64,000 nucleotides of DNA, taken from the NCBI GenBank assembly GCA_009917695.1, contig JAACJG010000001.1, positions 393,219-457,218 on the forward strand, in the 5' to 3' direction. Under the pieces are notes generated by a model. The model saw nothing but the letters and a program-made list of their open reading frames with translations. It was not told the origin of the DNA and did not search any database. A program made the position numbers and the translations under genes. Below are positions 21,150 to 41,401 of the stretch, piece after piece; the stretch's first letter is position 1; every line of letters begins with the position of its first letter. Source of the DNA: Candidatus Rifleibacterium amylolyticum. GTDB lineage: Bacteria > Muiribacteriota > Ozemobacteria > Ozemobacterales > Ozemobacteraceae.

Positions 21150-21217
21150 GTCATTGCTTCAGGGCAAAGCCCTGAAGCGGTATGCCGAAGGCATAAGCCA
21201 GCTTTGAGCTAATCTCT
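21150..21217 (-). repeat. Fragment of the dispersed palindromic repeat family
   Basis: This copy consists of stacked hairpins. GCTTCAGGGC/GCCCTGAAGC (21156-21178) has a 3-base loop. It is followed by TATGCC-GAA-GGCATA (21181-21195), then AGCCAGCTTTGAGCTAATCTC. The second half is the reverse complement of parts of the copies at 25486 and 41288 (GATTAGCTCAGAGCTGGCTTATGCC). The outer GTCATTGCGAGG end is reduced to TCATTG. Confidence 0.75.
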
Positions 21218-25485: not shown

Positions 25486-25555
25486 GAGATTAGCTCAGAG
25501 CTGGCTTATGCCTTCGGCATACCGCTTCGTCGGCTTGAGGCCTCCTCGCAATGAC
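25486..25555. repeat. Dispersed palindromic repeat family copy
   Basis: This copy runs from GAGATTAGCTCAGAGCTGG through the hairpin TATGCC-TTC-GGCATA and CCGCTTCGTCGG to the end CCTCGCAATGAC. The GATTAGCTCAGAGCTGGCTTATGCC part and the CCTCGCAATGAC end are shared with 41288-41401. Only one half of the large palindrome is present. Confidence 0.8.
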
Positions 25556-33837: not shown

Positions 33838-34674
33838 ATGGATCTCCGGTCATTGCGAGGAAGACATCTGTCTGAAGAAGCAATCTCACAGACTGAAGGA
33901 TTGCTTCGTCGTTCTGCTTCGCTCAAGCTTCGCAGAACTCCTCGCAATGACATTAAATCCGTCATTGCGACTGCGAGGCTTAGCCGAAGCAGGAAGCAAT
34001 CTCACAGAGCCTGCAAAAATCTTTTTCAATTTGCGTCTCATATCGATAAGAATGATTGTCGACGAACAGAGAAGCAGCCGGATGGCAGCCCGGTTGCCAG
34101 CTTCGCTGCATCGGCGACGGTAGCTGTTGCTTCGCAGCCGGCGCACCCCGCATTGCCGGCACTGCCACCCGGCGAAGAGATCTATGATCTCATGCCGGCG
34201 CACAGTGTTGGGTTGCCGATTCTGTACATTCTCGGGCAGGTGCTGTTAGTTATCCTTGTATTCTGGTTGCTTGGACTGTTTTATCGCTGGTTGACCACGC
34301 CAGTTCAGAGACCTCGGCGAAAACTTGAACTGAGCCCACAACAGACGGCATTGCGCGCCATCGCCAGGCTTGAGCGTTCGCCTGTCTGGCAGCAACGCCA
34401 GATGAAAGAAATTTGCGAAAGCGTTGCTGCGATTCTCAAAACCTACGCGCACGATGCCTATGCCATAGGAATTGGCGCCGCCGCTACAACTGATGAATTT
34501 CTTGAGAGCTTCCGGCGCACCGGCATGGCAGCTGCGATTTTTGCGCGCAGTCGCGATCTGCTGAACGATTGTGATCAGATCAAGTTTGCCGGCGTCGAGG
34601 GCGACCCGGATCTGGCCGATGGCATGCTTAGTGAGCTCAAACAGCTGATTACTCAGGAGGGCTGGCAGCAATGA
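33838..34674 (+). CDS. DUF4381-like Bat-operon membrane protein carrying an in-frame repeat insertion
   Basis: The 278-residue product has a core with one membrane segment (about 125-149, YILGQVLLVILVFWLLGLFY) and a helical cytoplasmic region (165-278) like the DUF4381 proteins between DUF58 and BatA in many Bat operons. The ATG at 33838 has AGGAG 10 bases upstream, so it is the likely native start. From codon 5 to about codon 55 the sequence is a palindromic repeat (33849-34003) that keeps the frame open and encodes a basic peptide with LKLRRTPRND. The residues between repeat and membrane segment are Ala/Pro-rich. The repeat probably sits in or before the original signal region. Whether translation starts here or at a downstream codon is not known. 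The stop overlaps batA by 4 bases. Confidence 0.72.
   Translation: MDLRSLRGRHLSEEAISQTEGLLRRSASLKLRRTPRNDIKSVIATARLSRSRKQSHRACKNLFQFASHIDKNDCRRTEKQPDGSPVASFAASATVAVASQPAHPALPALPPGEEIYDLMPAHSVGLPILYILGQVLLVILVFWLLGLFYRWLTTPVQRPRRKLELSPQQTALRAIARLERSPVWQQRQMKEICESVAAILKTYAHDAYAIGIGAAATTDEFLESFRRTGMAAAIFARSRDLLNDCDQIKFAGVEGDPDLADGMLSELKQLITQEGWQQ
33849..34003 (+). repeat. Palindromic repeat inserted in frame near the 5' end of a Bat-operon gene
   Basis: It starts with GTCATTGCGAGG (33849-33860), which pairs with CCTCGCAATGAC (33940-33951). After 9 bases a second unit begins with GTCATTGCGA and ends in GAAGCAATCTC (33993-34003). The part 33900-34003 has the same length (104 bases) and order as 36798-36901. 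In both genes it is read in the same frame, giving peptides identical at 30 of 35 positions. Confidence 0.88.
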
Positions 34675-35678
34675 AATGGAACAGCCCTGAATTCATCCTG
34701 TTGTTTCTGCTGATTCCGCTGATCGCGGGTTATCGCCTGTATATCAGTCGCACTGCGAAAAAGGGCGGTTTGCGCTATCCGCTTGCATTTCTCGCCGGGC
34801 ATGGCAAAAGCTGGCGCAGTCGCCTGCTTTTCATTCCTGATCTGATGCGCCTGCTGGTGCTGGTATTGCTGATATTCGCCATGATGCAGCCACAATACGG
34901 CCAGGAACACGAAACCGTGAGCCGGCAGGGCATAGATATAATGCTCGCTATCGACGTCTCGGGCAGTATGGCCGCCGAAGATTTCAAGCCGAATCGTATC
35001 AAGGCGGCGCAAAAGATAACCGAAAACTTTATCTCCGGAATTCAGGATCACCGTATCGGCCTGGTCGTGTTTGCCGGTCTGGCACTTACCCAGTGCCCGC
35101 TGACAATGGACTACGGCGTTGTCACCGAATTACTGCGCCGCACTTCACTAAATATGATCAAATACGATGGCACTGCGATAGGCGATGCCATAATCAATGC
35201 GGTTTATAAATTTTCCGGCGAGCGTCGCGACAACCGCGATCGTGTCGTAATTTTGCTCAGTGACGGCGAGAACAACTCGGGCGTAGATCCTCTGGAAGCA
35301 GCAAAAGTAGCTGCCGATCGCAAGATTCGCATTTATACAATCGGCGTCGGCAGTCTCGAAGGCGCTCCGATTCCGATAATTCAGGGCGGTCGTAAGATGT
35401 ACGCGCGCAATCGCGACGGTTCGCTGTATATTCCAAAAATCGATGAACAACTGCTGAAAGATATTGCTTTCATGACCAACGGCCAGTATTTCAGGGCGAC
35501 TGACAATACTGCACTCGAAGAAATTTACAAGACGATCGCCACGCTCGAAAAGGGAAAGCTCGATGTCAGCCGCACAATTCAATATTCTGAGCGTTTCATC
35601 TGGTTTCTCGCTCCGGCCTTTGCTCTTCTTGCTTTCGAAATCTACCTGCGCAGCAGGGTTTTTCAGAGGTTATTCTGA
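34671..35678 (+). CDS. batA: BatA-type VWA-domain membrane protein
   Basis: The 335-residue protein has two N-terminal hydrophobic segments (residues 5-25, 55-80), a VWA domain (about 90-285) and a C-terminal membrane segment (310-330). The MIDAS motif DVSGSM is at about 97, with the Thr site in GTAIGDAI and the Asp site in LLSDGENN. BatA and BatB are paired VWA proteins that work with the MoxR ATPase; the system is linked to stress tolerance, though its real substrate is debated. It overlaps the preceding gene by 4 bases and the following batB by 1 base. Confidence 0.94.
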   Translation: MKWNSPEFILLFLLIPLIAGYRLYISRTAKKGGLRYPLAFLAGHGKSWRSRLLFIPDLMRLLVLVLLIFAMMQPQYGQEHETVSRQGIDIMLAIDVSGSMAAEDFKPNRIKAAQKITENFISGIQDHRIGLVVFAGLALTQCPLTMDYGVVTELLRRTSLNMIKYDGTAIGDAIINAVYKFSGERRDNRDRVVILLSDGENNSGVDPLEAAKVAADRKIRIYTIGVGSLEGAPIPIIQGGRKMYARNRDGSLYIPKIDEQLLKDIAFMTNGQYFRATDNTALEEIYKTIATLEKGKLDVSRTIQYSERFIWFLAPAFALLAFEIYLRSRVFQRLF

Positions 35679-36712
35679 TGTTGCGTAATCCGGAAAACCT
35701 TCTTTTGCTTGGCGTTACAGCGATTTGGGTAATGCTGCTGTGGCAGGTGACCGCGCGCGACATTCGCCGGCGCCGTGAGGCTTTTGCCAGCATCAGGATG
35801 CTCGAGCGCATTGCCAGCCACAAGCCGACCCGTCGCCCGGTGGTCAAGTGGTTGATGGTTCTGCTTGGACTGGCTCTGATTGGTTTTGCTCTGTTGCGCC
35901 CGCAGGGCAGCATATTCGAAGAAGAAGTCTATGGAGAGGGTCTCGACCTGGTGATCGCACTCGATATTTCGAAGTCGATGTACGCCAATGATATCGAGGG
36001 CAATTCGCGGCTTGACGTGGCCAAAGCGATTCTTTCGCGCATGGCCAACGGTTTGCGCGATGATCGCGTTGGCCTCGTCGTTTTTGCTGGTGAGACCATG
36101 GTGCAGAGCCCGCTTTCTTATGACAAGGGCGCTTTTCTGACTTTTCTCGAACGGGTCAGCCCGAATCTGCTGGCAAAGCAGGGCACAAATATGGCTGGAG
36201 CCATCCAGACTTCGCTCGACCGTTTCGACATGACAGCGTCTCAGTCAAAAGTTATTCTTCTTATTTCTGACGGTGAAGACAGAGATCAGGTGCGACTTCA
36301 GACGGCTGTCGATGAGGCGGTCCGCAAAAAAATTCCGGTTTTCACGGTTGGTATCGGCAGTGAGCGCGGCGGCCGCATACCGGTTGCCCGCAACTGGTTT
36401 GGCGACATCGAGTATTTGAGACACAAGGGACAGGTGGTCGTGTCAAAGCTTGAAGAAAAGACGCTCAGAGAGATAGCAGATAAGACCGGTGCCCGCTACT
36501 TCAGGGCGTCTGACATATCCAGTGCCAAAGAGGTCATTGGCGGCCTCGATGGTATTAAAAGAGTGGCGGTCTCCGGCGGAACCAGGCTGATAAGGCATGA
36601 GCTTTATTATGTGCCGGTGCTGCTGGCATTTTTTCTGCTGCTGCTTGAATGGATGCTCTCAGAACGCATCCCTTACGAACGCGAACGCGACCACTGGTTG
36701 AAACGTATATGA
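35678..36712 (+). CDS. batB: BatB-type VWA-domain membrane protein
   Basis: The 344-residue protein has N-terminal membrane segments (residues 6-24 and 60-78), a VWA domain with MIDAS motif DISKSM at about 96, GTNMAGAIQT and LISDGEDRDQ, and a C-terminal membrane segment (about 305-325). It is a paralogue of the BatA protein just upstream, with which it shares a TGATG junction. The last 4 bases (ATGA) overlap the start of the BatC-like gene. The whole series therefore shows tight coupling. Confidence 0.94.
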   Translation: MLRNPENLLLLGVTAIWVMLLWQVTARDIRRRREAFASIRMLERIASHKPTRRPVVKWLMVLLGLALIGFALLRPQGSIFEEEVYGEGLDLVIALDISKSMYANDIEGNSRLDVAKAILSRMANGLRDDRVGLVVFAGETMVQSPLSYDKGAFLTFLERVSPNLLAKQGTNMAGAIQTSLDRFDMTASQSKVILLISDGEDRDQVRLQTAVDEAVRKKIPVFTVGIGSERGGRIPVARNWFGDIEYLRHKGQVVVSKLEEKTLREIADKTGARYFRASDISSAKEVIGGLDGIKRVAVSGGTRLIRHELYYVPVLLAFFLLLLEWMLSERIPYERERDHWLKRI

Positions 36713-38049
36713 TAAAAGAACACAGCGCAGATACTACTATGAGAACACTTAACAAATTATCTGTTTTTAAAAGCAGAGCAGCTGTAATGACAAAGAGATT
36801 GCTTCGTCATTCTGCTCCGCTGAAGCTGCGCAGAACTCCTCGCAATGACATTATTAACGTCATTGCGACTGCGAGGTGCAGCCGAAGCAGGAAGCAATCT
36901 CATGGTATTCATCTGAGCCATTCCAGATGGCTGGCAAAGGGCTTGATGATTCTGGGATTATGCCTGCTGTTCATGTTGTCGACGATGCCGGTTTCAGCTC
37001 ACCCGGCCTTTAATATCAGACGAGGTCTGGCTGCGCTCGAGAGCGGAGAGCTGGAGAAGGCTGAGAGCGAACTGCAGCGGGCCAGGTTTGCTGAACCAGA
37101 TAATCCGGTGGTTTCGTATAATCTTGGCGTCGTCAGCTATCGTCGCCGCGATTATCAGAAAGCTGCCGGCTTTTTCATGCAGTCGGCGGCGGCTGCCGGC
37201 GCAGATATGCAGATGAAATTCGACAGTCTCTACAATCTTGGCAACACTGCGTTTAAGGCGGGAGATTATGCGGCGGCCGTTTCAGCCTATAACGGCAGTC
37301 TCGAAGTCAGAGATGACCAGCAGGCCCGTTACAATCTTGAGGTTGCCAGCAAAAAGCTGCAGGAGCAACAGGAAAAACAACAGCAGCAGCAGGAAAAACA
37401 GCAACAGAACCAGGATCAGCAGAATCAGCAGCAGAAAGACGGCCAGAAACAGGAGCAGGAGGGTCAGCAGGACAAAAACGATCAGAACTCTGGCGAACAG
37501 CAGAACCAGAAAGATCAGAACAATCAAAATGGCCAGCAGGGTGACCAGCAAAAGCAACAGGCTGACTCACAGTCTGGCAGTGAAGACAAACAGGGCGAAA
37601 GCGAAAATCAGCAGCAGGCCGATTCCGATGAACAGAAGTCTGGCGAACAATCAGATCAGCAGCAGGCGCAAAAACCTGAGTCAGGCAGCGAAGATCAGAA
37701 TGCTTCGCAGACATCACCGCTGAACGAGCAGGCAGGCGAAGATCCTTCTGAAAATCGCGAAGACGTTCAAATGGGCAGCGGCGAAGAGCAGCAGCAGGAA
37801 CCACAGAAGCCCGAAGCGTCACAGCGCGCACGCGCGCTCAAAAATGTCAGACTCAACCCTTATCAGGTTGAACGCCTGTTACAGAAGATGCAGGAACGTG
37901 AGCGGCAGGCACAGCTGCATTATCGCAATGAGCCGCAGCGACTGGATGAAGAAGACCCCTTCAATATGGATGCGCAGCAGCTGCAGGAATGGCTTCAGAA
38001 CCGCGGCCGCCCCCAGCGGCAGCAGCAGGCGGATGAGCCTGACTGGTAA
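36709..38049 (+). CDS. BatC-like TPR protein with Gln-rich region and in-frame repeat insertion
   Basis: The 446-residue protein starts at ATG 36709, overlapping the batB stop by 4 bases. Codons 29-64 are a copy of the palindromic repeat (36795-36901). Only after it comes the hydrophobic signal-type segment (about residues 78-95, LMILGLCLLFMLSTMPVSA), so the predicted protein carries a 70-residue basic extension before its signal. TPR units cover about 98-225 (RRGLAALESGELEKAESELQ, NLGVVSYRRRDYQKAAGFF). A Gln/Asn/Asp/Lys low-complexity region of about 180 residues follows, then a short conserved C terminus (RLNPYQVERLLQKMQERE) typical of BatC-like TPR proteins. A start inside the signal (for example ATG near 36946) may be used instead. 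Confidence 0.78.
   Translation: MIKEHSADTTMRTLNKLSVFKSRAAVMTKRLLRHSAPLKLRRTPRNDIINVIATARCSRSRKQSHGIHLSHSRWLAKGLMILGLCLLFMLSTMPVSAHPAFNIRRGLAALESGELEKAESELQRARFAEPDNPVVSYNLGVVSYRRRDYQKAAGFFMQSAAAAGADMQMKFDSLYNLGNTAFKAGDYAAAVSAYNGSLEVRDDQQARYNLEVASKKLQEQQEKQQQQQEKQQQNQDQQNQQQKDGQKQEQEGQQDKNDQNSGEQQNQKDQNNQNGQQGDQQKQQADSQSGSEDKQGESENQQQADSDEQKSGEQSDQQQAQKPESGSEDQNASQTSPLNEQAGEDPSENREDVQMGSGEEQQQEPQKPEASQRARALKNVRLNPYQVERLLQKMQERERQAQLHYRNEPQRLDEEDPFNMDAQQLQEWLQNRGRPQRQQQADEPDW
36795..36901 (+). repeat. Palindromic repeat inserted in frame before the signal segment of the BatC-like protein
   Basis: GAGATTGCTTC (36795-36805) pairs with GAAGCAATCTC (36891-36901), and CTCGCAATGAC pairs with GTCATTGCGA around a 9-base centre ATTATTAAC. 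The whole copy is a 107-base near-perfect palindrome. It encodes LLRHSAPLKLRRTPRND and following residues in the same frame as the copy at 33849-34003. Confidence 0.88.
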
Positions 38050-41287: not shown

Positions 41288-41401
41288 GTCATTGCGAGGA
41301 GGGCGTCAGCCCGACGTGGCAATCCCATTGGCAGCAGGATTAGCTCAGAGCTGGCTTATGCCTGCGGCATACCGCTTCGTCGCTACGCTCCTCGCAATGA
41401 C
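41288..41401. repeat. Palindromic repeat copy between murB and its terminator
   Basis: The 114-base unit starts GTCATTGCGAGGAGGGCG and ends CGCTCCTCGCAATGAC. Inside it are a GGCAATCCCATTGG part and the GATTAGCTCAGAGCTGGCTTATGCC...GGCATACCGCTTCGTCGC part shared with 25486-25555. It is a full-size intergenic member of the family. Confidence 0.88.

Follow-up and report, generated by a model that had tools for sequence, protein, structure and literature searches.

Probable CGTC-type REP units in the leaders of two bat-operon genes of Candidatus Rifleibacterium amylolyticum

Introduction

Is a palindromic repeat that sits in the 5' ends of two genes of one operon translated with them, and if so, does it donate a peptide to the proteins? 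The question is raised by a 64,000-nucleotide stretch (the window) of the Candidatus Rifleibacterium amylolyticum genome, in an operon encoding a BatD-like protein, a MoxR ATPase, DUF58, the product of an unknown gene, a DUF4381-like protein, two VWA proteins (BatA/BatB) and the TPR protein BatC. The original prediction, made from the sequence of the stretch, held that the repeat had been inserted in the same reading frame into the DUF4381-like and batC-like genes, and that this might be a second, independent case after the palindromic elements (RPE) of Rickettsia.

Results

Compounds of short palindromes lie in both leaders

A pattern census confirmed palindromic copies in both 5' ends, at 33849-34003 and 36795-36901, and showed each to be a compound of short palindromes, a unit consisting of GTCATTGCGA, a variable inner hairpin and GAAGCAATCYC (Table 1). 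The DUF4381 leader carries three units in the order +,-,+ and the batC leader two in the order -,+, always with 9 nt between neighbours. Positions 33899-34004 and 36797-36902 are 90% identical over 106 nt and encode, in the same frame as had been predicted, the basic peptides LLRRSASLKLRRTPRNDIKSVIATARLSRSRKQSH and LLRHSAPLKLRRTPRNDIINVIATARCSRSRKQSH, with 30 of 35 residues alike and 5 different. That the frame is identical in both genes is weak evidence in itself, because the long unit is open in only one of the three frames on that strand. The RNA folds computed for the leader compounds reach -58.5 and -51.7 kcal/mol (z -8.7 and -6.1), and an Rfam search of the window gave no match.

Table 1 Genes and repeat units at the two leaders (window coordinates)
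Feature	Position	Strand	Basis
DUF4381-like gene with REP-containing leader; conserved core from LPPGEEIYDLMP (~34162)	33838-34674	+	
REP unit, 39 nt, left arm of head-to-head pair; inner stem AGAC/GTCT	33849-33887	+	pattern census
REP unit, long type, 55 nt, 9 nt after 33887; in-frame reading LLRRSASLKLRRTPRND	33897-33951	-	pattern census, stem analysis
REP unit, 43-nt CTGC/GCAG type, 9 nt after 33951, tail-to-tail	33961-34003	+	pattern census, stem analysis
batC-like TPR gene, in frame through REP pair to signal peptide (~36937)	36709-38049	+	
REP unit, long type, 55 nt	36795-36849	-	pattern census, stem analysis
REP unit, 43-nt type, 9 nt after 36849, tail-to-tail	36859-36901	+	pattern census, stem analysis

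Start sites and read-through

Start signals upstream of the repeats, also part of the original prediction, are present and in frame in both genes. The DUF4381-like gene (Pfam DUF4381 match at E 0.00015, under the family's curated cut-off) has AGGAG about 10 nt before the ATG at 33838, which is in frame with the gene body. In batC the ATG at 36709 shares an ATGA with the stop codon of batB, and from it 76 codons stay in frame across the repeats as far as the signal peptide. Past codon index 21, a TTG within the long unit, the DUF4381 frame holds no further ATG, GTG or TTG until index 105, by which the edge of the conserved PALPPGEEIYDLMP has been reached, so the repeat must be partly translated unless an unusual start is used. 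Judged from start codons and frames, translation through the repeat is well supported for DUF4381 and, given the conserved ATGA-overlap start upstream and the open frame, plausible for batC. In at least one of the two genes the repeat is probably read through.

Shuffling gave P values of 0.009 and 0.011 for the open frames of the window genes, which are biased in that the case was chosen because the frame was open, and of 0.040 and 0.031 for those of the congener G005. The simple coding-score caller that we used for gene calls (coding density 89%) sets both window starts downstream of the leaders, because these do not have a native-like coding score.

The family lies mostly between genes elsewhere in the sampled genome

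The census sample comprised stretches totalling 2.03 Mb of the 5.39-Mb genome and 30 further loci picked for holding exact copies. We obtained 80 matches in the 2.03 Mb, against none in a reversed-sequence control, and 44 more units from the 30 loci, about 124 in the sampled genome. Unit lengths of 28, 34, 39, 43, 44 and 55 nt reflect different inner stems, which vary yet stay complementary (GGGC/GCCC, GGTC/GACC, AGAC/GTCT, CTGC/GCAG, GTTCTGC/GCAGAAC); the outer stem is ATTGC/GCAAT, with the compensated variants ACTGC/GCAGT and ATCGC/GCGAT. Pairs were oriented head-to-head in 32 cases, tail-to-tail in three and head-to-tail in one, and the spacer was exactly 9 nt in 28 of the 32 head-to-head pairs, which behave as if the pair were itself the mobile unit. 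A weak consensus like TCTGACCAT can be seen in the 9-nt spacer (for example at G000 C1:46863-46933), and the pairs of genome G013 favour a 7-nt spacer.

That other members of the family are intergenic, as predicted, was borne out at 41288-41326 of the window and beyond it: among about 119 units outside the two bat leaders, none lay inside a well-supported gene in the sampled stretches and loci, as called by the coding-score caller, which is itself prone to leave N-terminal units outside genes. Units flagged inside genes at C2:69083, C4:366151 and C4:368370 merely overlap ORF ends or low-scoring ORFs; two 3-mismatch matches inside genes were dropped as chance, and matches of 72-74 nt were misjoined units. 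The gene frame was open through the unit in 4 of 54 pairs of a unit and its following gene, against 3 of 54 and 4 of 54 in two control frames, a count from which the DUF4381 leader is absent, the caller's start being too far downstream. Genome-wide there was thus no excess of in-frame open units among these pairs, and the RPE-like behaviour proposed for the repeat is not supported for the family in general. No RAYT transposase was found near the units, the one Y1_Tnp match (C1:111277) being more than 8 kb from the closest.

Separately, a unit of the 43-nt type lies in frame at the 5' end of another ORF (C1:365703-365745; L108:5703-5745), which has a signal peptide and is YfiR-like by eye, with AGGAG and an out-of-frame ATG just downstream.

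Relation to known repeat classes

Compared by published text description, the family appears to match the CGTC-tagged REPs that Di Nocera et al. described in 2013, hairpins that end in GTC and have a stem starting AT, mostly in intergenic head-to-head pairs (PMC3733652), which have no dedicated transposase and for which intragenic in-frame cases are reported in several species (PMC3733652). Here, too, the outer stem is complementary and AT-initial, the units are GTC-ended, head-to-head and biased to intergenic sites, they flank no transposase gene, and some are in frame. C or T precedes GTC in 54 of 78 source-genome copies, the CGTC/TGTC tag being eroded in about 30%. The family differs in its 28-55 nt units with a variable inner hairpin, in its near-fixed 9-nt spacer, and in a tail that is mostly CTC where the published short unpaired tail is mostly CCA. 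Its units have a 5-bp outer stem plus an inner stem with purine-rich bulges between them; the published hairpin has an 8-9 bp stem and a 4-5 nt loop.

In Rickettsia, RPE-4 (CGTC-4) and RPE-6 (CGTC-1) are themselves CGTC REPs (PMC3733652), and both the in-frame phenomenon and the element class are already published (PMC3733652; PMC2229807), so the suggestion that the two bat genes are a second, independent case is not supported. Like RPE-4, RPE-6 and RPE-1, the leader units are palindromes that would be translated in frame in protein genes, N termini included, but here only leaders are affected and no unit was found in a conserved domain; the many in-frame copies in conserved genes that mark the Rickettsia elements have no counterpart among the approximately 119 other units. 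GTAG REPs with RAYT transposases and BIMEs are likewise short intergenic palindromes in inverted pairs, but they carry another tag, and the sole Y1 match here is remote from the units.

Exact-pattern copies numbered 71 in the source genome, 50 in G013, 20 in G002, 6 in G005 and 0-3 in each remaining genome of the 57 searched. Copies of the family occur in many phyla, including two Rickettsia endosymbionts, and in 103 of 107 copies from other bacteria GTC is preceded by C or T; CCA tails are common in other phyla, and CTC, CCC or CCT in the source genome. In other phyla, eight long ORFs that span units were considered, seven of which lack a Pfam domain and prove nothing. The eighth is purL of a Bacteroidales MAG (L313:2352-6242), in which a like unit lies in frame at residue 979, between AIRS_C and GATase_5.

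Orthologous leaders are filled, differently filled or empty

Family-level orthologue matches mostly begin after the leaders, and the more distant relatives examined lack the repeat segment. In G004 and G012, batC carries no unit and starts at the ATGA overlap with batB, a start common to the window, G004, G005 and G012. Congeners, however, carry different family units at three of the four orthologous leader sites examined (both in G005, batC in G002), which does not fit a simple single insertion. The G005 DUF4381 leader holds a head-to-head pair, in frame from a TTG and followed by a GTG, and its batC a decayed unit of the 34-nt type in frame after the ATGA start. In G002, the TAA of a decayed batC unit closes the upstream frame, and translation therefore begins at or after the unit's end, likely at the GTG there, which follows the unit's GAGGA; the DUF4381 ATG starts of this genome lie downstream of a long leader. 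Given this stop and these downstream ATGs, read-through is not conserved, and the differing units of the congeners indicate that the leaders have been repeatedly occupied and are variable, and that the peptide is not conserved.

Discussion

We consider it probable that the N-terminal leaders of DUF4381 and batC are dispensable and variable and that selfish CGTC-type REPs are tolerated in them. Short non-autonomous hairpins of this type would be spreading in the lineage and would normally survive only between genes, being purged from genes and tolerated in leaders, and compounds of two or three units would have settled in these two. Because the N-terminal tails encoded by the leaders, which precede the conserved core or the signal peptide, are themselves poorly conserved, units with one open frame could be tolerated there. 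The product would probably be a basic cytoplasmic tail, for which the support is better in DUF4381 and the case plausible in batC. Its peptide would need no function, and the strong hairpins formed by the RNA may affect expression (translation or mRNA stability), as proposed for REPs elsewhere. This is a known, mostly tolerated kind of event and not a new peptide-donating route. It extends a described REP class, with in-frame leader cases, to another lineage, offers in these orthologous leaders a comparative example of N-terminal hairpin tolerance, and cautions against taking REP-coded leaders for conserved protein.

One leader compound may be a copy of the other, made inside the operon through local duplication or gene conversion, a proposal that concerns origin only, is compatible with tolerated REPs, and which we hold as possible but somewhat doubtful. 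In the sampled sequence the tail-to-tail long/43-nt compound with 9-nt spacing occurs only at these leaders, 2.9 kb apart, but 6 of the 55 positions differ between their long units, and copies on other contigs are at least as near (5-6).

It is unlikely that the units are untranslated intergenic REPs with a frame open by chance, both proteins starting downstream, batC at the TTG/ATG of 36937-36940 and DUF4381 at a codon outside the standard set, for instance ATC. The absence of an in-frame excess and the G002 starts at or after the repeat agree with this, as does the view that many N-terminal REPs are probably extragenic (PMC3733652), but DUF4381 offers no standard start between the repeat and its invariant core, the signal peptide of a batC product started at 36940 would lack a basic n-region, and batC retains the overlap start of its relatives.

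More doubtful still is the idea that in this genus the bat operon recruited REP units as start regions for DUF4381 and batC, the same leaders holding different units that are in frame in two species and, in a third, supply the likely ribosome site and start codon of batC. An RPE-like coding palindrome, adapted to in-frame insertion and donating a functional basic peptide to membrane proteins, is highly improbable: the frame and peptide shared by the two genes, the G005 leaders open through different units and the third in-frame leader at C1:365703-365745 would suit it, but none of the roughly 119 other units sampled lies in a supported gene, the G002 frame is closed, and enrichment over control frames is lacking.

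Two further repeat observations were made. Another repeat, about 43-45 nt long and 95-98% alike between copies, is present at 21174-21216, 25488-25532 and 41338-41382 of the window, with two copies close to CGTC-type units at 25538 and 41288. At the G000 contig ends C15, C19, C22 (96-152) and C16 (103583-103639), a unit lies equally far from the end (L022-L025), and these contigs probably break in one longer repeat.
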